Counted from the first letter of the stretch, positions 32,956 to 55,400 are shown. The stretch is DNA of 58,607 nt from Prochlorococcus sp. AG-402-A21 (GCA_003279655.1 QCHI01000009.1:1-58607); one strand, 5' to 3'. Program-made: numbers and translations. The notes: generated by a model not told the origin, from the sequence alone.

Positions 32956-32973
32956 ACATTGCATTTTAAATCA

Positions 32974-33705
32974 ATGTTTCGATCACTCAGATCAGATTTC
33001 AAAATAATCAAAGAAAGAGATCCTGCAGCTAAAGGAGCTTGGGAAATAATATTGTGCTACCCAGGCTTTCAGGCTTTAGCTGTACATAGAATTAGTCACA
33101 AACTTTGGAAATATAAACTTCCTCTAATTCCAAGAGTGCTCAGTCACCTAACTAGATTTTTTACGGGTGTAGAAATTCATCCAGGTGCAATAATTGGCAA
33201 AGGTGTGTTTATAGATCATGGAATGGGAGTAGTAATTGGAGAAACTAGTGAAATAGGAGACAGGTGTTTGCTATATCAAGGAGTAACTTTGGGCGGGACT
33301 GGAAAAGAAAGTGGTAAAAGACATCCAACTCTTGAGAGCAATGTCGTCGTGGGTGCAGGCGCAAAAGTACTGGGAGGAATTTACGTAGGAACTAACACAA
33401 GAATTGGGGCTGGATCAGTTGTAGTGAAAAATGTTGAGGCGAATAGTACTGTGGTTGGGATTCCAGGACGAATAGTTCATCAAAGTGGAGTAAAAATCAA
33501 CCCTCTAGCTCATTCTGCGTTACCAGATACAGAAGCCAACGTACTAAGGAATCTTATGGAAAGAATCGATCAATTAGAAAATGATATTTTAGGGCTGCAA
33601 GATCTATTAGGAAATATTCAGATCAATAAAAGAGCAGAAAGAGTCAGAGGTGAATCTCAGAATCTTAGGGACAAAGAAATCATTGATTTTATAGGAGATG
33701 ATTAA
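32974..33705 (+). CDS. cysE: Serine O-acetyltransferase
   Basis: CysE acetylates serine with acetyl-CoA, the first step of cysteine synthesis. The 243-residue protein has an alpha-helical N-terminus (IKERDPAAKGAWEIILCYPG) and the left-handed beta-helix of hexapeptide repeats (FIDHGMGVVIGETSEIGD with the catalytic His, LYQGVTLGGTG, GAGAKVLGGIYVG, GAGSVVVKN). The frame opens with TTG 32959, but ATG 32974 (MFRSLRSDFKII) is the conserved family start. It converges on the Wzm-like gene. Confidence 0.95.
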   Translation: MFRSLRSDFKIIKERDPAAKGAWEIILCYPGFQALAVHRISHKLWKYKLPLIPRVLSHLTRFFTGVEIHPGAIIGKGVFIDHGMGVVIGETSEIGDRCLLYQGVTLGGTGKESGKRHPTLESNVVVGAGAKVLGGIYVGTNTRIGAGSVVVKNVEANSTVVGIPGRIVHQSGVKINPLAHSALPDTEANVLRNLMERIDQLENDILGLQDLLGNIQINKRAERVRGESQNLRDKEIIDFIGDD

Positions 33706-33744: not shown

Positions 33745-34542
33745 TCAAAGCATAAAAGGCAATCTTTTACCTTCCTTATCAAGTAAACAGACAGTAAAGA
33801 ATAATCCGATAATATTAAATATCAATATAAATATTGAGACCTGATAGTTCAAAGACCCCTCAATTATGCTCATTCTAAGTGAATCAAGAATTTGATAGAT
33901 AAAATTCACATTTGTTATCCAAGAAAGTGAGCCCAAACTCTCTTTCATATAAAGTATTGGAGAAGTTAAAAAACACAACTGAAGAATAATAGGAACAAGC
34001 TGAGCAATATCGTTAAAGCGCACACTTATCAAACATACGATTACAGGAAACCAATATATGAAAATAAAAAGGTTTATAAATGGAATCAAAGAATAAATAA
34101 TAATATTAGTTAACAGAGAGAATTTTAAAAAAATAAATGCTAAAAGCACTAAAATAAAAGACTGAAAAAAAGTTTGTAATTGAAAGGACCATTCTTCTAA
34201 AGTATAAAAAATAGGCTTCAGATTCAAATTTTTTATATTTGAAGAATTATAAGCAAAAAGTTGTGGAGAATTCGCAATTGATGCACTTATTGTATTCCAA
34301 ATGACTAATCCAAATCCTAAATATATAAAATAAGTCGAAAAGTCTTTAACGGAAAAAACTGTTCCATAAACAATACCAAGAGTTCCTATAGAAAGTAAGT
34401 TAGAAAATCCAAGCCAAAAACTACCAAGAATTGTTTTTGCGAACCTAGCTCTTGATCTAGAGGTGGCCGTATACCACCATGCTCTTCGAGTTTTAAATGC
34501 AAATTTAAAACTATTCAATAAAATTTTGACTGTAATAATCAT
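33745..34542 (-). CDS. ABC-2 type polysaccharide exporter permease (Wzm/KpsM-like)
   Basis: The 265-residue membrane protein has six predicted helices and the ABC2 permease pattern: an amphipathic start (WWYTATSRSRARFAKTILGSFWLG), a central FIYWFPVIVCLISVRFNDIAQLVPIILQ block (shortened) and LTSPILYMKESL near the end. These match permeases that move O-antigen or capsule across the inner membrane. It overlaps the upstream ATPase gene by 32 bases and forms the exporter with it. It is the last gene of a secA-ATPase-permease run. Confidence 0.9.
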   Translation of the reverse strand: MIITVKILLNSFKFAFKTRRAWWYTATSRSRARFAKTILGSFWLGFSNLLSIGTLGIVYGTVFSVKDFSTYFIYLGFGLVIWNTISASIANSPQLFAYNSSNIKNLNLKPIFYTLEEWSFQLQTFFQSFILVLLAFIFLKFSLLTNIIIYSLIPFINLFIFIYWFPVIVCLISVRFNDIAQLVPIILQLCFLTSPILYMKESLGSLSWITNVNFIYQILDSLRMSIIEGSLNYQVSIFILIFNIIGLFFTVCLLDKEGKRLPFML

Positions 34543-35893
34543 GGGTATGATAATAATTCAAAGCAGCATCCAAAGGACCATCGAATGCGATAGATCCATG
34601 ACTAAATACGATACCCCTATCACAAAACTGTTTTAATAATCCTTCAGAATGACTAGCAAGAAATAGAGTTGCTGCCGATTCCATAAATTGTTTCATTCTA
34701 TCCTCAGCTCGATCAAAAAAATCAGCATCTCCTGTTCCAAATCCCTCATCTATCGCCAGGCATTCATGTGGACTTGAAGTCAAAATTGAAAAAATTAATC
34801 TCGCTGACATCCCTTCACTATAGGTTTTGATTGGTAAAGATATGTAAGAACCTAAACCAGAAAAATCTATTATTTCTTGTAAGAAAGAGTCAAAACCAAC
34901 TAAACTATGGTGATTAAGAAGATAGTGAGCTTTACAAGCATCAATTCCAGAAAGTTCAGAGCTTGTCAAAAAAGTTTTTTGAAGCATAGGATATACATCT
35001 ACTGAGATTTTAATATTCCCTCTTGTCGGTAAATAAATACCAGAAATTAACCTTAAAAAACTACTTTTACCAGAACCATTATGACCAATCAGTCCTACTC
35101 TTTCTCCTTTCATAATAGTTAAGTTAATCTTATTTAAAGCAATAACATTGGTTCCAGATTTAGATTGCTTTAATTTTCCACCAGTAATATTAATAACCTT
35201 TGTTGCGAATCTTTTTGAAAGAGATCTATTTTCAGCAGAATAAATGGGAATTGATAATGAGGTCTCTTTAATTTCAATTGCTGGCTGAGTAAGTATTTTT
35301 ATAGCAGAGCCAGTAAATGATCTAATAACTTTGTTTACATCCTCAAGTGATACTTTCTTGTTAGTTACAGTACTAAGAAAATTAGATCCTCTAATTAATA
35401 TATTTCCTGCAATCCAAGGAGAAATTGAATCAGGTTTATATAAATTAACTAGAGAAATACTTTTACTTATTTGATTAGTAAATATTTCTGCAGCAGAAAG
35501 TTTATTTTCAAGTATCTCCTTATCTTTAGCTTCTTGTTCTAGTTGGATTGACAAATATTTATCAGCAGAGAATAATAAGTTATATACAAAATCAGAAATA
35601 TTATATTCTGGATTTTCAACCATTTTCAGCCAATAGTTTAAACTATCAAAATCAGCTTTTCTATTAAAAAGATTTAAATATACTTTGTTAATCTTAAACT
35701 CAATAGATTTATCTGAAGGAATAGATTTAATATATTCTTCTTGTCTAGAAAACTCATTAGATATATCTTTCAAAGTTAATAAATTCTTCAACTGTGAAAG
35801 CCAATAATTTTTGCCTGAAGGGTCTGCAGGCCTACCAAAATAAGCTAAATATAATTTTTGTAAGTCAGTAGAACCAACATTTCTCATTATCAA
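34511..35893 (-). CDS. Polysaccharide ABC exporter ATPase (Wzt/KpsT-like) with N-terminal DUF4214-type module
   Basis: The 460-residue protein has two parts. Residues about 10-112 are two DUF4214-like repeats (LYLAYFGRPADPSGKNYWL and VYLNLFNRKADFDSLNYWL), followed by a helical linker to about 200. Residues about 205-460 are the ATPase: Walker A GHNGSGKSS (270-278), signature YSEGM (358-362), Walker B ECLAIDEGFG (377-386) and the switch His in FLASHSEG. This is the KpsT/Wzt subfamily. The usual C-terminal carbohydrate-binding domain of Wzt is absent; a surface-protein module sits at the N-terminus instead. The same N-terminal region, with linker, resembles residues 1-184 of the S-layer-like protein at 46903-51021. 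The fusion is continuous, with no frameshift. Confidence 0.9.
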   Translation of the reverse strand: MIMRNVGSTDLQKLYLAYFGRPADPSGKNYWLSQLKNLLTLKDISNEFSRQEEYIKSIPSDKSIEFKINKVYLNLFNRKADFDSLNYWLKMVENPEYNISDFVYNLLFSADKYLSIQLEQEAKDKEILENKLSAAEIFTNQISKSISLVNLYKPDSISPWIAGNILIRGSNFLSTVTNKKVSLEDVNKVIRSFTGSAIKILTQPAIEIKETSLSIPIYSAENRSLSKRFATKVINITGGKLKQSKSGTNVIALNKINLTIMKGERVGLIGHNGSGKSSFLRLISGIYLPTRGNIKISVDVYPMLQKTFLTSSELSGIDACKAHYLLNHHSLVGFDSFLQEIIDFSGLGSYISLPIKTYSEGMSARLIFSILTSSPHECLAIDEGFGTGDADFFDRAEDRMKQFMESAATLFLASHSEGLLKQFCDRGIVFSHGSIAFDGPLDAALNYYHTHDYYSQNFIE

Positions 35894-35907: not shown

Positions 35908-38742
35908 TTATACTTCTACTTTCTTTTGAGCTGGTTGAAACATGAACATAGAGTAAATTACATTTCTTCTCATATTTATCATCATGTCTAAAAACATGTC
36001 GTAGCCCTCATTTTTATATTCAATCAAAGGATCTTTCTGACCATACCCTCTTAATCCTACAGATTCTCTTAAAGAATCCATAGACTGTAAATGCTCTCTC
36101 CAAAGGGTATCTAATTGTTGAAGAATAAAAAACCTCTCAGCCTCTCTCATTATTCCAGGATGTGATTGCTCTACTTGAGCTTCTTTCAAATCATAGGCAT
36201 TTCTCAATTGCTCTTTGAGAAAATCTTTTAGCTCATCTTTATTTAATTGATTTAAATCTTCAGGCGTTAGATCCTCTAACAAATAAACAAATTCCTTTAC
36301 TTTAGATACTAAATTGGTTAAATCCCATTCCTCGGGTGGTAAATCTTCATTTACATAAGCTTCTACTATTTCCTCCATTGTTCTCTGACCATAACCAATA
36401 ACTTGCTGTTTTAATTCTCTTCCATCTAAAACTCTTCTCCTCTCTGAATAAACTGCTTTTCGTTGATTATTCATTACTTCGTCATATTCAAAGATTTGTT
36501 TTCTAATATCGTAATAGTAGGTTTCTACTTTTTTTTGTGCTCCCTCTAAAGACCTAGTAAGCATTCCAGACTCAATAGGCATATCTTCCTCCACTCTGAA
36601 AGCATTCATGAGGCCTGCAACTCTATCTCCACCAAAAATACGAAGTAGATTATCTTCTAAGGATAAAAAGAAACGTGTGCTTCCTAAATCACCCTGACGA
36701 CCAGCCCTACCTCTTAATTGATTATCCACCCTCCTTGATTCGTGACGTTCAGTTCCAATTACATGTAATCCGCCAACTTCACGAACATTAGTTTCTTCTC
36801 GACAAAGGATGCCTTCATATTCTTCTTTTATAAGTTGTATGGCAATCCTTAACTCCTCAATATTTTTATCATTAGTTGGTGTTTTTTCAGCAGCAGTAGC
36901 AATGTAATCATCCAATTCAATCGAACTCAAAGCACGATCACCCCACTCTTTGACTAACTTTGAAGCTAGAGAGACTAACTTTTTATCAGTTTCATCGTTC
37001 AGTTGAACTGGAAAAATATTCTTCAAAGATATTGATTGATCATTTTTGGAACTTTTTGAGACAGATTGCTGATCATCCTTAAACCCAGTTACCTTGGATT
37101 GCCTCTGTAAAGGTATAGGTGGTTTATGACCCTCCTCAGGTTTAACTAAACGCAAACTAAGAATTTCTTTGATTTTCAATCTAGCCATGTAATCACTGTT
37201 ACCGCCTAGAATTATGTCGGTTCCTCTGCCAGCCATATTGGTGGCAATTGTTACTGCACCTGCTCGTCCTGCCTGAGCAACTATCTCTGCCTCTCTCTCA
37301 ACATTTTCAGGTTTAGCATTCAATAAATTATGTGGTATTTCTTGCTCAGCAAGAAGTGCACTCAATAACTCACTCTTCTCAACACTTGTTGTACCAACAA
37401 GCACTGGTCTTCCTTGTTTATGTATTTCAGCTGTTTCTTTTGCTACAGCTCTCCATTTCCCTGACTCTGTTTTAAAAACTTGATCCACCCAGTCCTCTCT
37501 TGCAACTTTCCGATTAGTAGGAATAACGGTCGTTTGCAACTTATATGTTTTTTCAAATTCAACTTCTTCTGTTTTTGCAGTCCCTGTCATTCCTGATAGT
37601 CGGGGATAAAGAAGAAAAAAATTCTGATATGTAATAGAAGCTAAGGTTTGTGTCTCAGGCTGAATAGGGATATTTTCTTTAGCTTCAATTGCTTGATGTT
37701 GCCCATCACTCCAACGTCTTCCAGGCATAACTCTGCCAGTAAATTCATCGACAATTACTGCTTCGTCATCTCGAACTATATAGTTTACGTCTTTAATAAA
37801 AAGCTCTTTCGCCTTTAGTGCATTAGTAACGTAATGAGCCCAAGGATCTTTAGGATCAAATAGATCTTTTACATTTAAAAGCTCTTCAGTTTTAGCAAAA
37901 CCTTCATCAGTCAGAATACAGCTTCTTTGTTTCTCATCTACCTCATAATCTCCCTCAGGATCAATACCATCTTTACTCACATCTAATGACCGTTTCAAAT
38001 TCGCAACAACTGCTGCTACTTTTTGGTATTTTTCTTGAGGTCTTTCAACTTGACCAGAAATAATTAATGGTGTTCTTGCTTCATCGATCAAGATTGAATC
38101 GACTTCATCAATAACACAAAACTGAAAATCTCTTTGAACAATCTCAGATTTATCGGCCGCCATATTATCTCGCAAATAATCAAATCCCAACTCTGAGTTA
38201 GTTGCGTAAGTGATATCGCATTCATAATTCTTCTTTCTTTCCTGAGGGGACATTGATTGTTGAACCAAGCCAACACTTAAACCAAGAAAGCGGTGGATTT
38301 GTCCCATCCATTCCGCATCTCTCCTTGCTAGATAATCATTGACGGTAACTACATGTACTCCTTTTCCTGTTAATGCATTTAGATAGCTCGGCAAAGTAGC
38401 AACTAATGTCTTGCCTTCCCCAGTTTTCATTTCAGCGATTTGACCTTCATGCAAGACCATCCCCCCAATCAACTGAACGTCGAAATGTCTCATACCTAAC
38501 ACTCTTCTTGACGCCTCCCTGACCACAGCAAAAGCCTCAGGCAATAGATCATCTAACAACTCAAGTTCAGAATTTCTTTTGTTTATTTTGTCAAATCTCA
38601 ACCTAAATTCAGACGTTTTTGTTCTAAGTTCCTCATCAGTTAATAGCTTAACGTCGTCCTCCAAGATATTAATATCAGGAATAATGTTATAAAAGGATTT
38701 AAGCTTTCTAGCACTTGGATCACCAAATAATTTTCCAAGCAT
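35908..38742 (-). CDS. secA: Preprotein translocase ATPase SecA
   Basis: SecA is the motor that drives unfolded proteins through SecYEG. The 944-residue protein has Walker [15 protein letters not shown], the DEAD-type [18 protein letters not shown], the helicase part ([46 protein letters not shown]) and the C-terminal helical scaffold with [31 protein letters not shown] (in part). It ends [12 protein letters not shown] without the zinc-binding tail, as in other cyanobacteria. The exporter ATPase gene starts 14 bases after its stop on the same strand. It is a core gene in the middle of the surface-polysaccharide region. Confidence 0.97.
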
Positions 38743-38947: not shown

Positions 38948-40000
38948 GTGAAGTCTGGCCAGATAGCTCTTATCACTGGTATTACTGGACAAGATGGCAG
39001 TTACCTAGCAGAGTTACTACTTGAGAAAGGATATGAAGTACATGGGATAATTCGACGTTCCAGTACACCAAACACACAAAGGTTAGATTCAGTAAAAAAT
39101 ATTCAACGAATCAAACTTCATTTTGGAGATCTAACTGATTCTTTAAGTATAAATAAAATCATTAAAGAAATAAGACCTAATGAAATATATAATTTAGGAG
39201 CTCAAAGTCATGTTGCAGTAAGTTTTGACGAACCTGAATATACAGCACAAACAGATGCATTAGGTGCTTTAAGAATTCTTGAAGCAGTCAGGATGAATGG
39301 TTTACAAAATATAACTAAAGTTTATCAAGCGAGTACAAGTGAATTATTCGGAAAGATCACTGAAAGTCCTCAAAATGAACTAACTACTTTTTACCCGAGA
39401 AGTCCATACGGAGTTGCCAAACTTTATGCATATTGGATAACTATTAACTATCGAGAATCTTATGGGATTTATGCATGCAATGGGATATTATTTAACCATG
39501 AATCTCCTAAAAGAGAAGAAAGTTTTGTAACTAGAAAAATAACTAAAGCACTAACGAGAATAGATGCAAACTTACAAAAATGTGTTTATCTTGGGAATTT
39601 AGATGCAAAAAGAGATTGGGGACATGCTAAAGATTATGTTGAAATGCAATGGAGAATGTTGCAACAAGATGAGCCTGAAGATTTTGTTATTGCAACCGGA
39701 AGACAATGTTCAGTAAGAGACTTTATTAATCTGGCAATTAAAGAATTGGGATGGGGTGAATTAATCTGGAAGGGCAAAGGCAGTGAAGAAATTGGAATCA
39801 GATCAGATACTAATGAAACAGTTATTAAAGTAAGTTCAGAATTTTATCGACCTGCAGAGGTTGAAACTCTTTTAGGAAATCCTCAAAAAGCATCAGATAA
39901 ATTAGGATGGAAGCCAACTTCATCACTTGAAGAATTAGTAGCTGAGATGATTGAAGAGGACAAAAAAATTACGAAAAACGAATTATTATTAAATAATTAA
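38948..40000 (+). CDS. gmd: GDP-mannose 4,6-dehydratase
   Basis: Gmd turns GDP-mannose into GDP-4-keto-6-deoxymannose, the branch point to GDP-fucose, GDP-rhamnose and GDP-perosamine. The 350-residue extended SDR has the NAD(P) motif [20 protein letters not shown], the catalytic set in STSELFG (Thr/Ser) and YGVAK (Tyr, Lys), the Gmd marker [16 protein letters not shown], and the late [18 protein letters not shown]. The start is GTG at 38948 with an AGGAAG site about 7 bases upstream. It is divergent from secA across about 205 bases. The following metalloprotease gene starts 18 bases after its stop. Confidence 0.95.
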
Positions 40001-40018
40001 ATAATAATATTCTACAAA

Positions 40019-41200
40019 ATGAGTTTAGTATTTAAAGACTTAATAAGTACTGAGTTCTGGAATCATTCTATTAACGCATTTGAAATATCGGAAAAGGAAA
40101 AAGTAAGTTACTATATTGCGACAAATACTGGTTGGGATAAAGTTAATGACTATTTAACAATTAATGATAATTTAATTGAAAACGAAGCAAGTATAATAAG
40201 TAATGGTCACTCTTCTCAAGAAATAGGATTTATTGTTGAATCTTTTACAAGGCTTGATGATCTGATTGATTTAGATTTTTACAGAAAAGATAATGATCAA
40301 GGTTCACTTATTGATATTTATTCTGTAAATTATTCTTCAAATTTTCAAGTCAATACTGTAGGTATGGCAATAGCCCAAACGACTAAAAATGGATCATGGT
40401 GGGATATCTTGTGGAAAGAAGAAGCCAAATCAGATTCTTCTTTAACTCCATTCGAAGAATATATAATTATTCATGAAATTGGACATGCACTTGGTTTATC
40501 TCATCCGAAAGAAGATCCATTTAATAAAAATTGGAATTCTAAGGATACAATCATGTCTTACAATAAAAGTCCAGAAGGTTGGAATGACTGGTTTTCACCT
40601 TTAGACATCCAAGCGCTTCAGTTTATGTGGGGGGTTGAGGATGATGGAAAATATTTATCTATTGAAGATTATAGTTATAATGTTGAATATAAAACAAACA
40701 AAGAAGAAACTTATAAACTCATTACAGAGTCAAAAAATCATGATATTTCACAGGTAGAAGAAATACGATTTATTGATGTAATAGTAAATGTTGAAAAAGA
40801 TATAAAAAACACATTTGAATTAGTAAATCACAAAGATGCTATTACAGGCAAAGTATTTAGATTATATAAAAGTGCATTTAATCGTTTTCCAGACAATGAG
40901 GGTCTAGATTACTGGATAAATTCAATAAAAAAAGGAAAGAATACATACGAAATAGCATGCAATTCTTTTATTGTTTCAAAAGAATTTTTGGAGACGTACG
41001 GGAATACGATTGAAAATGAAGAATTTGTTGAAAGCTTATATAATAATATATTTACTCGTTCTTCCGATCAGGTTGGATTCAATTATTGGCTTGAAGAACT
41101 AAATAGTGGATCTCTAACGAGAGGTGGTCTTTTATCAAGTTTTTCGGAGTCAGCTGAAAATAAATCACTTTTTTCCTCTCAGTTTGGATTGAGTGATTAA
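40019..41200 (+). CDS. Serralysin-like zinc metalloprotease with C-terminal DUF4214-type repeats
   Basis: The 393-residue protein has an N-terminal peptidase domain of the metzincin (M10 serralysin) type: zinc motif HEIGHALGLSHP (152-163), Met-turn DTIMSYNKS (176-184), then the serralysin-typical SPLDIQALQFMWG. No signal peptide and no propeptide cysteine are visible. RTX nonapeptide repeats, usual in serralysins, are absent. Instead residues about 276-393 hold two DUF4214-like repeats (VFRLYKSAFNRFPDNEGLDYW and LYNNIFTRSSDQVGFNYW), the same kind as in the S-layer-like protein and the exporter ATPase. The lack of an N-terminal signal and the type I secretion operon just downstream suggest it leaves the cell by that route. 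Confidence 0.9.
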   Translation: MSLVFKDLISTEFWNHSINAFEISEKEKVSYYIATNTGWDKVNDYLTINDNLIENEASIISNGHSSQEIGFIVESFTRLDDLIDLDFYRKDNDQGSLIDIYSVNYSSNFQVNTVGMAIAQTTKNGSWWDILWKEEAKSDSSLTPFEEYIIIHEIGHALGLSHPKEDPFNKNWNSKDTIMSYNKSPEGWNDWFSPLDIQALQFMWGVEDDGKYLSIEDYSYNVEYKTNKEETYKLITESKNHDISQVEEIRFIDVIVNVEKDIKNTFELVNHKDAITGKVFRLYKSAFNRFPDNEGLDYWINSIKKGKNTYEIACNSFIVSKEFLETYGNTIENEEFVESLYNNIFTRSSDQVGFNYWLEELNSGSLTRGGLLSSFSESAENKSLFSSQFGLSD

Positions 41201-41555: not shown

Positions 41556-42299
41556 ATGGATATATTGTCTCTTTCAAAAATAGATCTAATAAAGTCACTT
41601 CATAAAAATAATTTACTCAAACAATTTATCAAGTCTGATATATCTGATAAAGAGATATCGAATGTTAAGCTGAGTGATAGCGACTTCAAAAAACAAAAGG
41701 AAAATTTCTTTAGAACTTACAATATAAATAATGAACAGGATAAAGAGAATTTTTTTAAAAAAAATTCAATAACAGAAAAGCAATTGTTCCAAAAAATCAC
41801 TGCTCAGGCACAATTAAGAACTTATCTAATACAAAACTTCAAAGCAAAAGCTGAGAGTAGATTTATTGATAGAAAGTTATACCTTGACAGTGTAATTTAT
41901 AGCCTGATCAGAGTTAAAGATCCTCATAAGGCGAATGAATTATATATGCAAATATATGAAAAAGAATCTAATTTTGTTGAATTAGCGCACCATTCAGAAG
42001 GACCTGAAAAATCCACCAAAGGCTTAGTCGGTCCTACCGCTCTAAACCAGGCAGATCCGGCTTTAGTTGAAATACTTCGCTCACTAAAACCAGGTGAAGT
42101 TCATGAGCCAATTAGAGTGAATGAATGGTTCTTAATAGTGCAATTAGAACAATATTTTCCTGCTCAATTAGATGCTCAAATTGAGATAAAAATGATGATG
42201 GAATTGTTTGATATATGGCTTGAAGAAAAGTCATCTAAGATAGTAAAAGATGTTGTTGAGAAAATTAATTCTATGAACACAGAGGTTCCAGTCTCATGA
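41556..42299 (+). CDS. PpiC/parvulin-type peptidylprolyl isomerase, cytoplasmic
   Basis: The 247-residue protein has an N-terminal SurA-like helical part (about 1-100) and a C-terminal parvulin domain (about 110-205: YSLIRVKDPHKANELY, FVELAHHSEGPEKSTKGLVGP, LKPGEVHEPIRVNEWFLIVQLE), followed by a helical end. It has no signal peptide, unlike SurA or PrsA, so it should act inside the cell. It overlaps the type I exporter gene by 4 bases (ATGA). A fold-delaying or delivery role for large RTX substrates is a reasonable inference. Confidence 0.88.
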   Translation: MDILSLSKIDLIKSLHKNNLLKQFIKSDISDKEISNVKLSDSDFKKQKENFFRTYNINNEQDKENFFKKNSITEKQLFQKITAQAQLRTYLIQNFKAKAESRFIDRKLYLDSVIYSLIRVKDPHKANELYMQIYEKESNFVELAHHSEGPEKSTKGLVGPTALNQADPALVEILRSLKPGEVHEPIRVNEWFLIVQLEQYFPAQLDAQIEIKMMMELFDIWLEEKSSKIVKDVVEKINSMNTEVPVS

Positions 42300-45220
42300 A
42301 TAAAATTGTACTATCAGATTTAACACCATTCTCTAATTTTAATGAAGATGATTTAAAATTAATTGAAGAAAATGGTAAGCTGGTAAAATATCAACTTGGT
42401 CAAGTAATTTCCACTGCAAGTATTATTCAAAGTTCGATAATATTTATTATAGAGGGAAAAGCAAGAGTTATAGGTTCTGACGCTAATAGAAAGAAAACAA
42501 TTGGAAAGCTTATCAAAAATGATTGTGTTGGATTAATTTCCTTGCTTAGAGGAAATCCATGTGAGCAAATTAATGCTATTACACCGATATTAGCTATTGA
42601 ATTTAAGGATAGTTTTATATTAGATCTTTACAAAAATAACTCTAAATTCAAGCAATGGGTTTCAGGCTATATAAGTATATCAGAGCTTTACCATGTTATA
42701 TCAAAAAGCAATTTAAACGAATTAAAGAATAAAATTAATGACCCTAATAATCTGGAATCAATCAAAAACAATTCAGAACTAATTACCATTTATGAAGGTA
42801 GATTAAATCAAACAAATCAAGAAGATTATAGTTTCTTAGTAAGTAGTTCAAACATCACAAACTATGAAATAGGTGAATCAATTGATAACGTTAATGAATT
42901 TGAGTGGAATGGACCTTTACCTGCAAGATTAATAAAATTATCAAAGTCAATTCTATCTCGAGAAGATTTATCAAATGTAAAAGCTGAAACAGAAAAAATA
43001 AAATTAAGCTTTGACTCAGCTGAAATTGCAGTCGCTCCAGAACAATCGACTATTCAAATTGGTGATTATAATTCAAAGCAAAAATTTAAACTTATTAAAG
43101 GTAATGGATTACTAGATGAAACTCTTGCGTGTATGCAAATGTTATCACGTGAAATGAAATTACCTTTTCGGAAAGATGCTGTTGAAAAAACTCTGAGGGA
43201 TTTCATAAAAGATGATAGAAAACCATCGATTCAATTATGTGGTGCCATATCAACACGACTTGGACTGCATGCCTCGATTGGAAGAGTCCCTGCTTCTTTA
43301 GGAACCAGATTACAAGCACCCTCTTTAATATGTTGGGGAGAAACTTTTGCGATAGTAACCAAGAGCGATGCAAGCGGATTACACTTAGCCTCGCCTAGTA
43401 AAGGGTTTATCTTTATAGCTACTAATGAATTAGAAGAGAATTTCCCAGAAGCAATTGACCTTCTAATAGTAGACAGAACCAATTCAACTCCAAACCAAAC
43501 TTTTGGTTTGGGATGGTTTTGGCCTTCAATTAAAAAATTCAAAGCTAGTCTGATTCAAGTATTTTTTGCGTCTTTTATGGTTCAATTATTTGGACTTGCA
43601 AATCCACTTTTAATTCAAATTATAATAGATAAAGTAATTTCACAAAGAAGTTTAGATACTCTACAAATTCTTGGAATCGCGTTGGTTTTTGTAACTATTC
43701 TTGGAGGTATAATTGGGAGCCTTAGGACTTTCCTCTTCACAGAGACAACAAACAGAATTGATACGAGATTAGGAGCTGAAGTGATAGATCATTTATTAAG
43801 GTTACCGCTTAATTACTTTGATAAAAGACCGGTTGGAGAATTATCTAGCAGGGTTTCGGAATTAGAAAGAATAAGAAACTTTTTAACTGGTCAAGCTCTT
43901 ACAACTATTCTTGATGCTGCTTTTTCAATAATATATATAATTGTCATGGTTTTTTATAGTTTTTCACTAACGTTAGCTGCTTTATCTGTTGTACCAATAC
44001 AAATTCTAATTACACTTTTAGGCGCACCAATAATCAGAAGACAAATAAGAGAAATAGCCTCACAAGATGCAAAAACTCAAAGTCACCTCGTTGAAGTTCT
44101 AACAGGAGTACAAACTGTAAAAGCACAAAACGTAGAGACGGTTACACGTTGGAAATGGCAAGATTTATATAACAAATACATTGCGAAAACTTTTGATAAA
44201 ACAATAACAGGAACTTCTTTAAGCCAATTAAGTAATGTGATGCAACAACTATCTCAATTGATAGTTTTATGGCTTGGAGCTACTTTAGTTTTAAAAGGTC
44301 AAATAACTTTAGGCCAATTAATAGCATTTAGAATCATATCTGGATACGTCACACAACCGTTATTAAGACTCAGTACAATTTGGCAAAACGTTCAAGAATT
44401 GCGTGTTTCATTCGAAAGATTATCAGACATAATTGATACTCCTGAAGAGTCAAATCAAGAGGATAAAGCAAATATTCCACTGCCTCATATCAAGGGTAAT
44501 GTTCAATTTAAAAATGTTAATTTTAGTTTTGAAAATAATGACAGAAAAGTTTTAAATAACATATGTCTAGATATCAAAGCAGGGACATTTGTAGGAGTTG
44601 TTGGACAAAGCGGAAGCGGTAAAAGCACACTTATGAAATTGATACCAAGACTATACAATTCGCAATCAGGAAAGATTCTAATTGATGGTTATGATGTTAA
44701 TAAAGTTGAGTTATATTCACTAAGGAGACAAATAGGAATTGTTCCTCAAGATCCATTATTATTTGCTGGAAGTGTTACTGATAATATTGCACTAACCAAT
44801 CCAGAAGTTGATAGTGAAGATATAAAAAAAGCGGCAAAAATAGCAAATGCTCATCAATTTATAATGGACTTACCGCTTGGATACAGCAGTGATGTAGGTG
44901 AGAGAGGTGCTGGACTATCGGGAGGTCAAAGGCAAAGATTAGCAATTGCTAGAACTATTTTAATGAACCCTAATATGCTTATTCTTGATGAAGCTACCAG
45001 TGCTCTGGATTATCAAACAGAGAGAGTAGTTTGTGAAAATTTAAGAAAATCATGCGAAGATACAACTGTCTTTTTTATTACCCACAGATTAAGTACGATT
45101 AGAAACGCTGATATAATTATTATGCTTGACAATGGAGTTATTGCTGAAGTAGGGAAGCATGAAGAATTAATTAATAAAAAAGGTATGTATTATGCTCTTT
45201 ACAAACAACAAGGAGATTAA
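42296..45220 (+). CDS. Type I secretion ABC exporter with cNMP-like and C39-like domains
   Basis: The 974-residue inner-membrane exporter has four parts. Residues about 1-135 resemble a cyclic-nucleotide-binding domain, but the phosphate-binding cassette is degenerate (CVGLISLLRGNPCEQINAIT). Residues about 268-400 resemble a C39 peptidase; the positions of the catalytic Cys (near 275) and His (near 350) are not Cys and His, so it is an inactive C39-like domain as in HlyB. The membrane domain is about 415-700. The ATPase domain has Walker A GQSGSGKST (about 770), Q-loop VPQDPLLFAG, signature LSGGQRQRLAIARTI, Walker B MLILDEATSALD and the switch His ITHRLST. The 2-base gap to the adaptor gene shows they work together. 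The outer-membrane TolC partner is not in this window. Confidence 0.93.
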   Translation: MNKIVLSDLTPFSNFNEDDLKLIEENGKLVKYQLGQVISTASIIQSSIIFIIEGKARVIGSDANRKKTIGKLIKNDCVGLISLLRGNPCEQINAITPILAIEFKDSFILDLYKNNSKFKQWVSGYISISELYHVISKSNLNELKNKINDPNNLESIKNNSELITIYEGRLNQTNQEDYSFLVSSSNITNYEIGESIDNVNEFEWNGPLPARLIKLSKSILSREDLSNVKAETEKIKLSFDSAEIAVAPEQSTIQIGDYNSKQKFKLIKGNGLLDETLACMQMLSREMKLPFRKDAVEKTLRDFIKDDRKPSIQLCGAISTRLGLHASIGRVPASLGTRLQAPSLICWGETFAIVTKSDASGLHLASPSKGFIFIATNELEENFPEAIDLLIVDRTNSTPNQTFGLGWFWPSIKKFKASLIQVFFASFMVQLFGLANPLLIQIIIDKVISQRSLDTLQILGIALVFVTILGGIIGSLRTFLFTETTNRIDTRLGAEVIDHLLRLPLNYFDKRPVGELSSRVSELERIRNFLTGQALTTILDAAFSIIYIIVMVFYSFSLTLAALSVVPIQILITLLGAPIIRRQIREIASQDAKTQSHLVEVLTGVQTVKAQNVETVTRWKWQDLYNKYIAKTFDKTITGTSLSQLSNVMQQLSQLIVLWLGATLVLKGQITLGQLIAFRIISGYVTQPLLRLSTIWQNVQELRVSFERLSDIIDTPEESNQEDKANIPLPHIKGNVQFKNVNFSFENNDRKVLNNICLDIKAGTFVGVVGQSGSGKSTLMKLIPRLYNSQSGKILIDGYDVNKVELYSLRRQIGIVPQDPLLFAGSVTDNIALTNPEVDSEDIKKAAKIANAHQFIMDLPLGYSSDVGERGAGLSGGQRQRLAIARTILMNPNMLILDEATSALDYQTERVVCENLRKSCEDTTVFFITHRLSTIRNADIIIMLDNGVIAEVGKHEELINKKGMYYALYKQQGD

Positions 45221-45221
45221 A

Positions 45222-46400
45222 ATGAACAATAATAAAAAAGCAAAAGATAAATCAAATTCCAGATTTGAAAAGTATAAAGAAATAGTGTTCAGTAAATCTA
45301 AAATTATTTCATTTAACAAATTAATAGAGAAATTAGAAATAAAGCAAAAAAAAATCAAAAACTATCTATCAACGTTACTATTAAATAAAGAAATCAATAT
45401 AATAAACAAAAGTCAATCCAAATTAAATAATTTAAGTAGCAAGTTTAAAGGTATCACTAACAGTACACAAAAGCTTAGTAAGAGGCTCACAGAAACCGAT
45501 GATTATGAGGTTATCCTTACTCCCACTCAATTTTGGTCGAGAGCAATTACATGGAGTTTAATGTCAGGCACAGCCGTGGGGGTAGCTTGGTTGGCTACCG
45601 CAAAAACTGAAGAGATAATAGTTGCAACAGGAAAATTAGAACCTATTAGTGGTGTTGTAGAAGTACAAATGCCTGTACAAGGTATAGCAGAAAAAATTTA
45701 TGTTAAAGAAGGTGAGAAAGTAGAAAAAGGTCAAACGCTTGTATTACTAGATACTACTTCAAGTAAAAGTCAGAATGATCAGCTAAAGAAAAGCATCAAA
45801 TACAACCAAGAAATTGCTAACAGACTCCAAATATTGGTCAACGAAGGTGCTGTATCAGAATTACAGTTCCTTGAACAAAAGAATAAGATCGAACGACTTC
45901 AAAGCCAACTCATTCAAAGTGAAGTAATTCTCAAATATCAAAAAATATTAGCTCCCGCGAGTGGAATAGTTTTTGACTTAAAGCCATGGGGACCTGGATT
46001 TGTTGCACAAACGAGCCAACCGATACTTAAGATCGTCCCAAGTGATAATCTGATTGCAAAAATTGAAATAGCAAGTAGGAATATAGGATTTGTTTCAGTA
46101 GGAAAGAATGCCTCTATAAGTATTGATTCGTACCCATCAAGTGATTTTGGTGTAATTGAAGGGTTAGTAACAAAAATAAGTTCTGATGCACTTCCCCCAA
46201 ACCCTCAAATAAACAAGGGCTATAGATTTCCAGCAGAAGTAGAATTAGAAGGTCAAAATCTTATTTTAAAAAATGGTAATAAACTTCCATTACAAGCAGG
46301 TATGAGTCTTACAGCAAATATCAAATTACGAAAGGTATCTTACCTACAACTTTTACTGAACACTTTTCAAAGTAAAGCTGATTCTTTGAGGACACTATAA
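45222..46400 (+). CDS. HlyD-type membrane fusion protein of the type I secretion system
   Basis: The 392-residue adaptor links the ABC exporter to an outer-membrane TolC channel. A long Lys-rich cytoplasmic segment (1-105) precedes one membrane helix (about 108-126, AITWSLMSGTAVGVAWL). The lipoyl/barrel halves follow (GVVEVQMPVQGIAEKIYVKE; APASGIVFDLKPWG) with only a short coiled-coil hairpin of about 60 residues between them, then the C-terminal beta-barrel (LQAGMSLTANIKLRK). ATG 45222 has a strong AAGGAGAT site just upstream, so the earlier in-frame ATG 45192 inside the exporter gene is not used. Typical HlyD proteins have a longer hairpin. Confidence 0.92.
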   Translation: MNNNKKAKDKSNSRFEKYKEIVFSKSKIISFNKLIEKLEIKQKKIKNYLSTLLLNKEINIINKSQSKLNNLSSKFKGITNSTQKLSKRLTETDDYEVILTPTQFWSRAITWSLMSGTAVGVAWLATAKTEEIIVATGKLEPISGVVEVQMPVQGIAEKIYVKEGEKVEKGQTLVLLDTTSSKSQNDQLKKSIKYNQEIANRLQILVNEGAVSELQFLEQKNKIERLQSQLIQSEVILKYQKILAPASGIVFDLKPWGPGFVAQTSQPILKIVPSDNLIAKIEIASRNIGFVSVGKNASISIDSYPSSDFGVIEGLVTKISSDALPPNPQINKGYRFPAEVELEGQNLILKNGNKLPLQAGMSLTANIKLRKVSYLQLLLNTFQSKADSLRTL

Positions 46401-49900: not shown

Positions 49901-51021
49901 GTTAGCTGAGAGGCACCACTAGCTGTGCTTACGTTAAGTGTCTCAAAACCTGTATTAGAGGTATTACCAATAGTAACTGTACCAATAGCACCATTAGCTG
50001 TTGTTGCGTTGGTGCTAAGAGAAAGAGTTAATTCATCCGCTGTACCGGTGAGCAAAGAATCAATAAATTGAACTGTTGTATCACCTGCAGAAACGCTATT
50101 CAACTCAACTGAAGCTAATCCCTTGAGGCTATTAACAGTTAAATCAGTTGTAGATGCTGAGTTAACGATACTAGTAAGGCCTGTGGCTCCAGTAGCATTA
50201 ATTGTTGTGCCGCCAGTAGTTGTTGAAGTAAGAGTGTATTTCTCAACGCTATTAGATGTGAAGCCGGCCTCTGATACTGCAGCTGTTCCAGCAGAACTGT
50301 AATTAAATGAATCTGTTCCCTCTCCACCTGTTAGCTGGTCTCCAGAACTAAGAGTAGAATCACTACCAGAGAAAGTATCATTATTTGCTGTTCCAGAAAC
50401 AACGTCAACACCTGTTGTAAGAGTAGTTGTAGTACCAGTAGTAACAGATATTGGAGTTGCTGCAGATTGCATATTTGCAACCGCTGTATCAACTGAAGCT
50501 GCTGTTGCTTCAGTAGTAGTTATTCCTGCCAACCAAGTAACAGCTGATTCGAATGCTGCACCAGCCTTAAATGTTGCTCCAGTGCTTTCAGCCTGATAAT
50601 CCAACATTGCATTGGTATCAGCCTCAACATCTGCTGTGAAAGCGATAGCTGATTTTGTTTTAGCATCAAGTGCTGCAGCATCAGCTGCACCAGCTGTTTC
50701 AGTTTTAGCTGAGGTGATTAATTGAACCGCAAGCTTAGCTATGGAGCTTCTACCGGACTCAACTTCAACAGTCCAGTAAAGAAGACCAGCTGCATCAGCA
50801 GTTCTTCCAAATAGATTTTTATAAAGGTTATTTACCTGTTCCTCAGTGGATTTGTCACCTACTGTGGACTTTTGGTACTCATCTTGAGCGTGAATCTTTG
50901 CAGCGAATTCACTTTCAGTAATTCCGCTTGCTAACCAATATTTGATACCTGCGGGATCGCCAGGGCGGCCGAAGTATGCGATGTATTGCTGTTGAAGCTG
51001 GGTTTGGGTGATTGTAGACAT
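46903..51021 (-). CDS. Giant RTX / S-layer-like surface protein with N-terminal DUF4214-type module
   Basis: The 1372-residue acidic, Ser/Thr/Ala/Gly-rich protein has no signal peptide, and I see no cysteine on reading. Residues about 8-108 hold two DUF4214-like repeats (QYIAYFGRPGDPAGIKYWL, LYKNLFGRTADAAGLLYWT), followed by a helical stretch to about 184. From about 200 on it is a beta-rich solenoid with scattered RTX-type calcium motifs (GTANNDTF, GGEGTDSFN, GGSGDDTAN, GGAGTDTLT, GAGNDTVRL). It also has imperfect repeats such as TAITGSGGA, with a clear 312-base (104-residue) copy spacing at 47881 and 48193. The C-terminus (FSISNLTVY) would be the uncleaved type I secretion signal. The layout resembles Caulobacter RsaA and may relate to Synechococcus SwmA, both S-layer proteins exported without a Sec signal or thought to be. 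The gene is visibly richer in G and C than its neighbours, with C-ending codons, as in highly expressed genes. Confidence 0.88.
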   Translation of the reverse strand: MSTITQTQLQQQYIAYFGRPGDPAGIKYWLASGITESEFAAKIHAQDEYQKSTVGDKSTEEQVNNLYKNLFGRTADAAGLLYWTVEVESGRSSIAKLAVQLITSAKTETAGAADAAALDAKTKSAIAFTADVEADTNAMLDYQAESTGATFKAGAAFESAVTWLAGITTTEATAASVDTAVANMQSAATPISVTTGTTTTLTTGVDVVSGTANNDTFSGSDSTLSSGDQLTGGEGTDSFNYSSAGTAAVSEAGFTSNSVEKYTLTSTTTGGTTINATGATGLTSIVNSASTTDLTVNSLKGLASVELNSVSAGDTTVQFIDSLLTGTADELTLSLSTNATTANGAIGTVTIGNTSNTGFETLNVSTASGASQLTNIVTGASTVNVTGDQNLTITGAIAGATTISASAFTGNLSVVADSAGTAKDVAITGGSGDDTANFTNGFEADDSFDGGAGTDTLTLTQATASTTLAGTLTSVEQVNISDSGTGTIDMDNFSGLTKVIYDAGITANGTATVDDAVSGIEVEVDVANAVAADATLVVDLKTDGASDSATVTIDTISAGDGFASISVEDAETLTISADDDTTDATGTLTIAALTASDATSITLSGDSAVTITNTVDPATAVLATLDAGSMTDILTLSGTDFSASGATVTFGSANDVFTVGTMSGADTIDLSKGGDDRIVYSALAQSDQETDTIKGFTSGSDDIDLTTFTGTDSTAGIDTSTQFAGVHSTFALASGALTGTKKVVFQADANTLWYDVDGDEDLDGNDFRVILEGVSTITAGDLNIATTGVTATSNQAAFSTATKGHFTEDNALTEAGDTLNTTVAHLAGSTVNGLGGEDTIAVTGSGTFDFSGITFEGWETMTIGTSVTGITLDDADLANNAGGELATVTGVANIAQSVTVTQGANLTDTTFSETETLVMGSTTATIDAENLAAFDTAITGSGGADTLTLDATYSSPFDFSNTLLTAAETIAFGDATVLTFDAADLNDVTAFTATTATAQTVTLNDADDLSSISTTNTIGTLTFGNFAVTVDANNVTAFPTAITGSGGAASELIFGPDDDLDLTNLAVTGVSIFDLLAADAENITINVADWADVVTTQGGQDDNNLVILDTGNLQGTTMGAEYNHLTLRGDGTVTVDDTFIGSDLTTILGDNAGAADTLAIIMQDQTLDLGAITVGGTDTDAQITVTGTSGNDIITALDDHEAGSSLTITTGAGNDTVRLELNSGNSSADAGTTDILVLADAVSVTDFDATKDQIAILGADLVHDGATEVARAQAAGSINANIAPVTFVTGATLNDFTSSSGFANAVGTISHLTDGDTATLAIANTAGDQVGIYSLYEVNTTSGYTSTADALALVAVIDVTAGTFSISNLTVY

Positions 51022-51482: not shown

Positions 51483-51511
51483 ATCAAACATGTTTTGCAG
51501 AGTTGTTAGTT

Positions 51512-52468
51512 ATGCGTCTTAAAGCATTAGTGCTTGGTTGCACTGGACAAGATGGTTCATATATGACGCAGTTTTTACTTGGAAAAGGCTATGAAGTCGT
51601 TGGGACATCAAGATCAAATCAAAAAAATATTTCCAACCATGAAAAACTTGGTATTGAAGGTCTATTTTTGATAAAAAAAATTAACCTCTTAAATTTTGTT
51701 GAAATCAAAAATTTGTTATTAGAAGAAAATCCAAATGAAATTTATAATTTTTCCGCGCAATCTTCTGTAGGCAAATCATTCGATAATCCAATTGAAACTC
51801 AACAAAGTATTTCGCTGATAACTATTAATATTCTTGAAGCATGCAAAAAAACAAATTTCAAAGGAGCAATCTTTTTCTCGGGTAGTAGCGAGATATATGG
51901 TGAAACATTATCTGGAGCCAAAATAGATTCAGAAATGAATCCTCAAAACCCATATGCAATTGCAAAAGTTGAAAGCTTCTTACTGGTAAAACACTATCGC
52001 GAATTATATGGTTTGCGAGCAGTAACAGGGATCCTTTTCCCACATGAGTCACCTTTAAGGAATAGTAATTTTATAACTCACAAAATTATTTCTGCTGCAG
52101 TAAAATCACTTAAAGATAACAACTATAAACTTAAAATTGGAAACTTAAATATTGAAAGGGATTGGGGATGGGCTGAAGATTATATCAAAGCTATACACTT
52201 AATGACAAATACAAAAAATTTAAAAGATCAAATAATTTGCACAGGAAAAGCAACTAAATTAAGCGATTTTATTGATTTAACATTCAAACAACTAGATTTG
52301 GATTGGAACAATCACATCATATCTGACCCAAGTCTTTTTAGAGAAAGAGATATCAATATAAGCTTTGGAGATCCTTCACAAATATATGATGATCTAAATT
52401 GGAAACCTAAATCTAAAATAGAGGACATAATTCAAAAGCTTCTAAAAAGCAAAATCAATAATTCATAA
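51512..52468 (+). CDS. GDP-mannose 4,6-dehydratase family protein (second copy, divergent)
   Basis: The 318-residue extended SDR starts at ATG 51512 (MRLKALVLGCTGQDGSYMTQF); the frame also opens with TTG 51503. It keeps the NAD(P) motif GCTGQDGSYM, the catalytic Tyr/Lys in YAIAK, SSEIYG, and the Gmd-like HESPLRNSNFITHKI and IGNLNIERDWGWAEDYIKA. The RRGE-TFVTRK block of true Gmd is altered. It is therefore either a second Gmd or a related 4-keto-6-deoxymannose-forming or reducing enzyme. It overlaps the convergent glycosyltransferase gene by 6 bases. Confidence 0.85.
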   Translation: MRLKALVLGCTGQDGSYMTQFLLGKGYEVVGTSRSNQKNISNHEKLGIEGLFLIKKINLLNFVEIKNLLLEENPNEIYNFSAQSSVGKSFDNPIETQQSISLITINILEACKKTNFKGAIFFSGSSEIYGETLSGAKIDSEMNPQNPYAIAKVESFLLVKHYRELYGLRAVTGILFPHESPLRNSNFITHKIISAAVKSLKDNNYKLKIGNLNIERDWGWAEDYIKAIHLMTNTKNLKDQIICTGKATKLSDFIDLTFKQLDLDWNNHIISDPSLFRERDINISFGDPSQIYDDLNWKPKSKIEDIIQKLLKSKINNS

Positions 52469-55400
52469 ATAATTTACTTCCAAACTCTTAATCATATTTA
52501 GGAAGCGATAGCTAATACTGGAAAAACTTCTTTGTTTGATAATTTTAAATTTGTTTACATCGCTCTGATTATTTTTCATTGAAAAAATATTATAATTTTG
52601 AACAAATTTTTTAATACCAAATGCTATTTCAGTTGGAGAAAAGCCCTCTAGATAATCAACCAAATCTGATATATCATCAAAAATAGGTAGAGGTGTAACT
52701 AAAACTGGTCTTAATGTCGACAAACCATACCTAACAGCAGCACTTGAGGACTCGTTAGTATATTGATATGGAAATACGAGTAAATCACTTTTTTTTAATA
52801 AGTCTATTGTTTCAGAATCTTTCATATAACTTGGATTAAGAGAGATATGTTCTTTTAAATTTAAGTCGTTGACTAAGTCAACTAGTTCATTAAAAACAAA
52901 TTTATATTCCTTATTATATATTGCAGAATATATTGAAAGTTTTATGTCCAAACCATCCTTAATTAGAATATTAGTAGCTAAAATCAACTCTTTGAATCCT
53001 TTATTAGGGAGACAAAAACCATATGAAGAAATATTTATAGTTTTAGAAGATAAAAAAGGTATAGGTATTTTTTTTGGTTGATCTATGTATAATGAATGAT
53101 CGTAGATAGGATGTGGTAAAAGACATACATTATCTATTAAACCAATTTTTTTTAATCTATTTAGATCATTTAGAGTATGCACAATTAATCTTTGACATTT
53201 ACTAAAAGCTTCGAAAAGTAAAAATAATTTTTTTGATTCAAATTCATTAGGGTCTATTGTAGAGTGAAGGATAATTATTATATTAATTTTTTTACTTAGA
53301 ATTTTAAAAATGAATTCAGATAGGTTATTGAAATCAAAAAATCCATAATTAAATTGAATGATAAGAGAAGTTATACCAGACTTAATGATCAAATCTGCAC
53401 ATGATAATAAATCACTATTATAATCCCATGTAGGTATAACTCTCTCATTTTGGTTGGCAGGAAGTTCCTCATTTTGAGGGGAAAATATAATGACTTCATC
53501 CGAAATATGTTTTAATAAATTTTTAGAATAGGAAGCAATACCGCATTTTGAGTTCCAGGTTGAAATACATCCCAATTTCATATATCTAAGGGGATAAGAA
53601 ATCAGTTCATTCTTCACAAAATTTAAGTTTCTTAGAGCTACTTGATCCCAACTTGATTTAACTATATCTTTTTTGGCTTGAATTATTTTTCTTTCTTTTG
53701 AGATATTATCTAATTCATAATGTTCACGTAATAAGTAACATAAATGTTTTAATGAAGGTTCTGCCCAATATGAATTATCTAAAGTAAAATGCGATTGAGA
53801 AGGAACGAACTCATAATCAATCAACCAACTATTATCATTATTACAGAAGTCTTTCTGCCCACCCCAGTTCGTAGTGATCACTGGTATTTCTAAAAACATT
53901 GCCTCCGCTATTGGCAAACCAAAACCCTCACCTCTACTTGGAGCTACCAACAGATTCGACTGTAAATATAGAGATTTTATTTGGCTATCATTTAATTCCT
54001 CTTTTATTACTATTACATCCGGAAAATCAACATGATTTTTCCTAAGATTATCTAATTGTGAGTCAATAAGGTTATGCGGATTATCAAAAGTCTTAATAAT
54101 TAAGGAAACATCGTCACGAGAAGTAAATGTATTTGCAAAAGCTTGCAACAAAATGTCTATTCCCTTTCTTGGAAAACATGATGAAATATGTAAAATCTTG
54201 AATTTATTAGCTTTAAGTTTAAAATTATCTATTGAGGCAATCTGACTTAAATGATCGACTCCTAATCCAGTAACTTTAATTGGCAAATAAACTCCATTAT
54301 CTATTAAACACTTTTTTACTTGCTCTGACATAACAGAAATACCTTGCAGATTCGAGTTAAATTCATCAACAAATTGTTGTGGAAACTCAGACTCTTCCCA
54401 GCCATAAGCATGCAATAAGTTAACAACTCCATTAGCATCCTTCACTCTTGGTGGATAAAGATTTCTAGTACAAATAAAAAACCTATCATTAGTATTAATA
54501 CCCCTCTGAAATAAATTATTTACAAAGATATTCTTTTCTAAAAAGGAAGAGTTTGGCTGATAATCTCCAGGACCATCTGTAGAAAATAGAGAAACTTTCT
54601 CACCCAATTTATCCATAGCAAGTGCGAAATTCCTATTCAAAATAGCTAAGCTATAAGAACTATCAAACGGACCTTCTATATGCCAATTAATTTTTTCATT
54701 ATTTCTTACTCGCCTAATAAATTCAATTTTCTTTGATTGATTATTAATTATTGATATAGCTGAAGCTAAAGATTTTAAATACTTTACATTAGGTTTATTA
54801 ATTGATTTTACCAATGGACTTTCAATCAGATTTTTAATAAGAAGATGATATTTAGTGTCTATCAAAGATATGAAATTTTTTTCATTTATATTGTTTACAG
54901 TAGATTTACTGTAAACAATATCTTTTAATGAATCAATAGTCTTTTGAGCCGTACTTTGCCATGAAAAATATTTAGATCGCTCTCTAGAGTTAGCACAAAT
55001 ATCCTGATAAAATTTCTCATCAACTAAAGTTTTAGTAATTAAGCGTGCAATATCTTTAGCATTTGTTGGATCAAAAAGAAATTTGTGATCACCTATAAGC
55101 TCAGGTAAGCTAGTGATGTTAGATGCAATTACAGGTGTGCCAAAATTCATTGCCTCTAACACTGGCAAACCAAATCCTTCATGCAAAGAAGGAAAAATCA
55201 ACAAATGACAAGTACGATATAAATTAGCAAGTTCTATGTCAGGAACAAAACCAAGAAAAATTACATACTCAAGAGGCAAACCACAAGTAATCATCCATTC
55301 TTGAATTGAAAGTATTTCCTCTTCTGTATATGGGCCAGTGAGGACTAACTTGTGTTTTAATATAAGTCCTAAAGGAAGTGATGCATACGCTTCTATTAAT

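Follow-up and report, generated by a model that had tools for sequence, protein, structure and literature searches.

The stretch of DNA examined here raises the question of why an ATPase of the polysaccharide-exporter class should begin with the same module as a giant surface protein encoded on the same contig. The DNA comes from Prochlorococcus, an ocean bacterium that is among the most abundant photosynthetic cells. It is referred to below as the window, and comprises the 58,607 nt of contig C9 from the 1.67-Mb genome of Prochlorococcus sp. AG-402-A21. A prediction made from the sequence of the window (the original prediction) had held that the two N-terminal parts are related, each having two repeats and a similar helical linker; that the C-terminal CBD of the ATPase is missing; and that the module recognises the same polysaccharide in both settings, coupling glycan export inside the cell with protein anchoring outside.

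Results

Genes of the window

The window contains, in this order, cysE, wzm, wzt, secA, gmd, a metalloprotease gene with DUF4214, a PPIase gene and the genes for a HlyB-like ATPase and a HlyD-like adaptor; these are followed by the genes for the surface protein, a second Gmd-like protein, a long glycosyltransferase and a methyltransferase. The positions are collected in Table 1. The HlyB-like and HlyD-like proteins scored under the NCBIfam cut-offs. Judging by its size, its composition, the neighbouring type I secretion genes and a biased similarity to RsaA, the 1372-aa protein is probably S-layer-like. The ATPase frame can be read from a TTG, and the ATG lying two codons inside it (35887) is the start in most relatives.

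Table 1. Positions of the features of the window (in nt, counted from its first letter)
Feature	Position	Strand	Remarks
CysE-like acetyltransferase, conserved downstream neighbour	32959..33705	+	hexapeptide and SATase_N matches
Wzm-type ABC2 permease, partner of the ATPase	33745..34542	-	ABC2_membrane (PF01061) 31.2 bits, cut-off 26.9
Wzt-type ATPase reading frame, 460 aa from TTG	34511..35893	-	
Wzt-type NBD, residues about 200-458, without C-terminal CBD	34511..35290	-	
N-terminal DUF4214-plus-linker module of the ATPase, residues 1-190 counted from the ATG at 35887	35318..35887	-	
SecA, conserved upstream neighbour	35908..38742	-	
GDP-mannose 4,6-dehydratase (Gmd)	38948..40000	+	TIGR01472 521.5 bits, cut-off 415
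Metalloprotease (Peptidase_M10/Reprolysin-like), C-terminal DUF4214 at residues 315-385	40019-41200	+	
PPIC-type isomerase, HlyB-like type I secretion ATPase and HlyD-like adaptor, beside the surface-protein gene	41556..46400	+	
HlyB-like type I secretion ATPase, 974 aa	42296-45220	+	weak N-terminal cyclic-nucleotide-binding match, C39-like stretch
S-layer-like surface protein, 1372 aa	46903..51021	-	
N-terminal module of the surface protein, residues 1-190	50452..51021	-	
Gmd-like sugar-nucleotide dehydratase, next to the surface-protein gene	51503..52468	+	TIGR01472 E 4.9e-68, under cut-off
Glycosyltransferase, 1217 aa, two GT stretches, beyond the Gmd-like gene	52463..56116	-	

Five other frames of this genome contain DUF4214 as well, including a fragment of 36 aa. 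DUF4214 frames with about the length of the metalloprotease (383-416 aa) lie on the opposite strand, about 5-6 kb from the fused ATPase, in several genomes of the genus (for example G161, G196, G248, G086, G241, G110, G185, G296 and G255). At locus L163, a 981-aa protein similar to the HlyB-like ATPase adjoins a module-bearing surface protein, and in two other genera a family-4 glycosyltransferase gene (Glyco_trans_4_3) was seen near the surface-protein gene (L159, 8145-9365; L165, 11160-12392).

The two N-termini are one module

When the two proteins were compared by BLASTP, residues 15-110 of the ATPase aligned with residues 13-105 of the surface protein (42% identity over 96 aa, E 5e-21). 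Both exceeded the DUF4214 (PF13946) cut-off of 23.2, the ATPase with 38.1 bits and the surface protein with 41.3 bits. A search of the same genome with the ATPase ranked the surface protein directly behind the ATPase itself (E 1.8e-21, query 4-231); for the module part, the match that followed had an E of 2.7e-7. Profile-profile comparison of 21 ATPase modules with 15 surface modules gave an E of 1.6e-49 (probability 100) over 186 aligned columns; the helical linker is therefore shared too, beyond the two repeats. The BLASTP and profile-profile E-values led us to reject chance similarity of the two N-termini. A leucine-rich repeat protein that phmmer returned for the ATPase N-terminus (E 3e-4) was taken as a chance match, made up of two stretches with E 2.6 and 4.4.

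The AlphaFold2 models of the ATPase N-terminus and of the surface module have the same 11 helices in the same order (pLDDT 93.3 for the surface module; 80.6 for the ATPase overall). In an alignment of 20 ATPase and 22 surface modules, from which the divergent ATPase row L021 was left out, 30 columns share one residue, present in 90% or more of the sequences in each set. These include both repeat motifs and also the linker positions D122, T137, Y150 and G161 (ATPase numbering). A further 16 columns are conserved among the ATPase modules and, in the surface modules, hold a different residue or vary. Across 21 ATPase-module sequences, 21 columns are invariant. Hence residues 1-190 of the two proteins are one homologous helical module, as had been predicted for the repeats and the linker alike, and its core is a known Pfam domain of unknown function, DUF4214.

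The ATPase belongs to a CBD-less Wzm-Wzt exporter

The NBD of the ATPase matched PF00005 with 53.4 bits (cut-off 25). Against the NCBIfam galactan models, the NBD scored E 1e-56 with Wzt/RfbE (NF050108; 191.9 bits, under the equivalog cut-off of 400) and the permease E 2.7e-23 with Wzm/RfbD (NF050109; 82.9 bits, under the equivalog cut-off of 380). The fold of the NBD matched Wzt, TagH, TarH and KpsT chains, TagH and Wzt giving the best rows (Z 23-26); with Mycobacterium abscessus Wzt (PDB 9qhw) the identity was 35% and Z was 25.5. A Wzm-type permease gene adjoins wzt in all 21 fused loci and in the 12 unfused loci examined. These results support the assignment of the ATPase as the Wzt subunit of a CBD-less Wzm-Wzt exporter of the O-antigen/polysaccharide class.

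The missing C-terminal CBD was borne out as well: the Pfam scan gave no match to Wzt_C (PF14524) in the ATPase or elsewhere in its own genome, and the exporter-model match stops at residue 451. In the AlphaFold2 model of the ATPase a helix lies at residues 221-229, between the first two NBD strands, with a mean pLDDT of about 53 there; because the pTM was 0.58, no domain placement was read from the whole-ATPase model.

Distribution and origin of the fusion

The full-length fusion was present in 21 of 24 same-genus genomes (46-100% identity), which form part of a family sample of 300 genomes, the other 276 being of other genera. Among the 24, it was not found in G206, G272 and G290. Named contigs with the fused gene are mostly from Prochlorococcus single-cell genomes (e.g., AG-402-I20, AG-436-C14 and AG-409-A10). 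We considered a sequencing or gene-calling artefact and rejected it, the frame being open at 21 loci, one per genome. For the other genera, the best matches listed begin at about residue 169-208 and lie mostly in frames of 259-324 aa, with a few up to 426 aa; the module is thus missing from the orthologues of other picocyanobacteria.

The order secA-wzt-wzm is kept in every one of the 21 fused loci; cysE follows in 19 of them, and in two the contig ends there. Five unfused loci extending as far as secA (L025, L026, L030, L158 and L162) show the same order; therefore, the module was added to the 5' end of an orthologous wzt that had no CBD. Since the unfused orthologues examined in other genera are also without a CBD, the module did not replace one, and the idea that it stands in for a lost CBD in this ATPase was rejected. 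In a tree of 62 modules, with L018 and L021 as long branches, all 21 ATPase modules formed one group (support 99/100; present in 100% of 200 bootstrap trees), and we therefore conclude that there was one fusion.

The ATPase module has diverged at about double the rate of its NBD, the mean pairwise distance being 0.50 against 0.26. For the 12 closest pairs among 20 sequences (L021 left out), dN/dS was 0.19-0.33 for the module and 0.05-0.11 for the NBD. The module is under purifying selection, constrained more loosely than the NBD. In this clade the fusion is an old one and has been kept by selection.

A wider scan used two short peptide patterns on genomes of 84,980 species and kept 80 of 81 matches; such a scan finds only close modules. 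It gave 76 loci, of which 20 have an ABC domain (19 labelled Prochlorococcus, two of them on one contig, and one labelled Candidatus Pelagibacter) and 56 do not. No fusion outside the clade occurred among these 56 other DUF4214 loci, many of which carry RTX-like repeats. In a phylum sample of 386 genomes, with at most eight candidates scored per genome, three had the fusion, all of this genus. The Candidatus Pelagibacter-labelled contig (L054; MED605 MAG) carries a Prochlorococcus-type fused ATPase and is probably a binning error. On another contig, QCND01000031.1, the fused gene occurs twice (L058 and L059), in opposite orientations and at equal offsets from the ends; the contig looks as if it were an inverted duplicate, perhaps an artefact of single-cell amplification.

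Surface-module genes lie near Wzt genes

A full-length or nearly full-length module in a non-ATPase protein was found in 21 of the 24 genomes of the genus, the copy in G248 being cut by the contig end. Twenty genomes of the clade have both the fused ATPase and a surface module. The two genes lie on one contig, 13-34 kb apart, in 17 of them, and on separate contigs in G248, G266 and G284.

In a first sample of 30 other-genus genomes, three had any module match, one of them partial. Among all 276 other-genus genomes of the family sample, five had a long surface module at E 1e-15, and in each of the five the module gene is near a Wzt gene (1.1 kb in G298, 9.4 kb in G174, 12 kb in G037, 23.6 kb in G071 and 27.9 kb in G062). 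The nearby Wzt has Wzt_C in four of the five; in G062 it is CBD-less and beside secA. The chance of each such distance at random placement is roughly 0.1-2%, by rough arithmetic with one or two Wzt genes listed per 2.1-3.7 Mb genome, a figure that overstates the linkage because surface genes cluster in islands. Wzt_C was found in none of the 24 clade genomes.

For Caulobacteraceae, the best RsaA-type gene was within 40 kb of a Wzt gene in two of the five genomes that have both genes on one contig, and more than 370 kb away in the other three. RsaA-type genes are thus not regularly near Wzt in this family. The best-match Wzt-like ATPases of Caulobacteraceae with RsaA-type genes (G429, G437, G402, G433, G335, G417 and G395) are frames of 253-290 aa without such a module.

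The two modules do not co-diverge

If the two modules read the same strain-variable glycan, their divergence would be expected to run in parallel. A mirror-tree comparison was carried out on 20 genomes with one surface module per genome (for G255, L031, the better of two); G278 was left out because no full-length surface module was found in it, G290 because it has no fused ATPase, and G206 and G272 because they have neither. Divergence of the ATPase module and of the same-genome surface module gave r 0.17 (p 0.13), falling to -0.02 without G056, against r 0.95 for the ATPase module and its own NBD. Module pairs from the same genome were no more alike than other pairs (excess 0.2 points of identity, p 0.23), and closely related ATPases are accompanied by either of the two main surface-module types. 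Binding of a strain-specific epitope by the ATPase module is not supported by these sequence comparisons. If one glycan is bound by both modules, the contact must be with a clade-constant part of it, through conserved positions such as the 30 shared columns.

Fold of the module and its likeness to RsaA

In VIA-align, the best rows for the module were the N-terminal domain of RsaA bound to O-antigen (Z 5.8 and 5.6). The first of these aligned 134 residues at an rmsd of 4.0 over RsaA 56-243, which is the span of Pfam RsaA_NTD (PF19198). Phycobilisome linker domains, which are protein-binding and bind phycobiliproteins, came next with Z 5.2; according to the tool's own warning, Z values this low can mean mere common helical arrangement. 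Foldseek gave weak matches only, the best (E 0.11) to a phycobilisome linker. In a viral structure library, DUF4214-like folds came up in phage and giant-virus proteins, one of them annotated as a glycosyltransferase (Terrestrivirus; weak, E 0.26).

At the sequence level, a 30-domain RsaA-type profile matched the surface modules with the register preserved (E 2.9e-4, probability 41%). A surface profile of 58 sequences scored 31.0 against the RsaA family, above both the maximum of 60 column-shuffled controls (26.1) and the reversed control (16.5). A 43-module profile, mostly from other organisms (43 of the 56 loci, the remainder being left out before alignment), scored 24.3, below its shuffled maximum of 26.7. 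The joint profile of 79 sequences scored 26.8, a value without shuffled controls of its own. With the ATPase modules alone, the RsaA-family profile found no match (E 0.96); with the joint alignment, E was 0.12. When the PDB was searched with the joint profile, only chance-level rows came back (best E 0.055), and no RsaA. Neither protein of the window matched Pfam RsaA_NTD at E 0.1, and there was no sequence match to the phycobilisome linker family (PF00427) at the same threshold. Residues 149-297 of the surface protein matched RsaA across the junction into the lattice body with E 3e-6 to 2e-3, the bias being as large as the score.

Free Ca2+ is low in the cytosol. The published account of RsaA describes O-antigen binding that uses Ca2+ held by a loop of residues 77-100, and shows the domain assembled side by side along the glycan in a cryo-EM spiral (PMC6978808). 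This loop falls largely into gaps of the alignment with our module. The fold and sequence comparisons suggest a weak, register-consistent resemblance to the O-antigen-bound domain of RsaA, which may serve as a model of how the module works and not as the family to which it belongs.

Discussion

Proposed role of the module

We tentatively favour the view that the module is a polysaccharide docking domain. The Wzm-Wzt exporter moves a lipid-linked, O-antigen-type polysaccharide across the inner membrane. Once, in this clade, its Wzt gained at the N-terminus the DUF4214-plus-linker module with which giant secreted surface proteins begin. Inside the cell, the pair of modules on a Wzt dimer would hold the chain near the channel entrance, and the exporter would thereby capture or favour the polymer needed by the surface layer. 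Polysaccharide is presumably a molecule that both proteins meet, the one in the cytosol and the other at the cell surface, and it would be the ligand in both places.

The gate helix of WzmWzt is described as lying in the loop between NBD strands 1 and 2, on the membrane face, at a putative site for the lipid-linked substrate (PMC6379404). The module is joined just before NBD strand 1, so that two modules could reach the chain at the entrance. CBD-bearing exporters need the CBD to export capped chains (PMC9445017). In the orthologous lineage, which has neither CBD nor module, export therefore does not need the module, which is more likely to have added a site of capture or retention than an essential gate.

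The glycan-coupling part of the original prediction thus stands in part. The shared module, the class of the exporter, the gene linkage, the absence of Wzt_C from all 24 clade genomes and the weak likeness to RsaA speak for it; the absence of co-divergence and the failure of the CBD-replacement idea speak against it. Points against docking also include the weakness of the RsaA likeness itself, the nearly equal fit of phycobilisome linkers, the need of RsaA for Ca2+ and the linkage of only two in five in Caulobacteraceae. The findings hint that a single module may recognise one sugar chain both within the cell and on its outside.

The main rival, ranked below polysaccharide docking and in our judgement rather unlikely, is that the module docks proteins. 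On the ATPase it would recruit a cytosolic partner, for example a glycosyltransferase, and so couple synthesis to export. On the surface protein it would make contacts with neighbours, only a sticky helical scaffold having been reused for different ligands. CBD-less exporters are thought to couple export to synthesis, and phycobilisome linkers, which head the Foldseek list, fit the module nearly as well as RsaA does; the ATPase module does not follow the surface module in its divergence and has 16 conserved columns of its own. However, no partner is known, polysaccharide exporters are encoded near surface proteins with the full-length module even where there is no fusion, and the 30 common columns keep the same residue in both settings. 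A homotypic contact without any sugar role, by which the exporter would recruit surface proteins before type I secretion or the modules would aid dimerisation of the ATPase, appears improbable. The surface protein shares the cytosol with the ATPase when it is made, type I secretion genes adjoin its gene, and RsaA domains assemble side by side along the glycan in the cryo-EM spiral (PMC6978808); but the two modules do not co-diverge, and Wzt dimers form without such a module in solved exporters.

It is very improbable that the fusion arose by accident and persists, neutral or nearly so, with no function of its own. The twofold faster divergence of the module and the degraded first motif in G056 (L021) would fit such an origin, but the frame is open in 21 of 21 loci, and the low dN/dS of the closest pairs and the invariant columns are at odds with it.

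A further step beyond polysaccharide docking, that the exporter uses the surface layer's anchor domain to check its cargo and that N-terminal anchor-type modules are an alternative to Wzt_C, is unlikely on present evidence. If it is true, chains that can be held by an S-layer-type module would be captured in the cytosol and exported by preference, and a single domain family, acting on either side of the envelope, would match the glycan to the protein coat.

The fusion of DUF4214 to an ATPase of known cargo class is a rare clue to the ligand of this domain. Should one glycan be held by both modules, this would reveal how Gram-negative cells match a surface layer to its polysaccharide, would give O-antigen-type exporters a second kind of recognition domain and would extend the anchoring principle of the Caulobacter S-layer to Prochlorococcus.

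The literature searched, which included few subscription papers and no preprints, did not contradict the statement that no module swap of this kind between an ATPase and an S-layer protein has been described. Within that scope, none of the papers that mention DUF4214 concerned ABC exporters by title, and nothing was returned on a Wzt with an N-terminal extension in cyanobacteria, on a Wzt with S-layer anchoring or on the Caulobacter perosamine locus.

Comparison with known systems

The nearest relatives of the exporter are the CBD-less Wzm-Wzt systems (galactan, NF050108/NF050109; M. abscessus, 9qhw), which it resembles in the NBD, in the permease and in having no C-terminal CBD. It differs from them by the extra 190-residue module at the N-terminus, and both its proteins are well under the equivalog cut-offs. 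With Wzt proteins that carry Wzt_C (PF14524) it shares the plan of an ABC exporter ATPase to which a further, possibly chain-recognising domain is attached; here, however, the extra domain is N-terminal, all-helical and of an unrelated family. Wzt proteins of that kind are encoded near module-bearing surface-protein genes in four other-genus genomes.

RsaA_NTD (PF19198; PDB 6t72 and 6z7p) is likewise a helical N-terminal S-layer anchor with two motif repeats in the same register, but its Ca2+ loop is not evident in the module, and it was never seen here on an ATPase. The phycobilisome linker domain (PF00427) has a similar helical arrangement (Z 5.2) without a sequence match. Among the DUF4214 surface proteins (PF13946), to which the module belongs by the curated cut-off, the 56 other loci of the peptide-pattern scan are without an ABC domain. 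The kind of exporter, a CBD-less one of the O-antigen type, is known; here its ATPase carries in addition an N-terminal, S-layer-anchor-like module.
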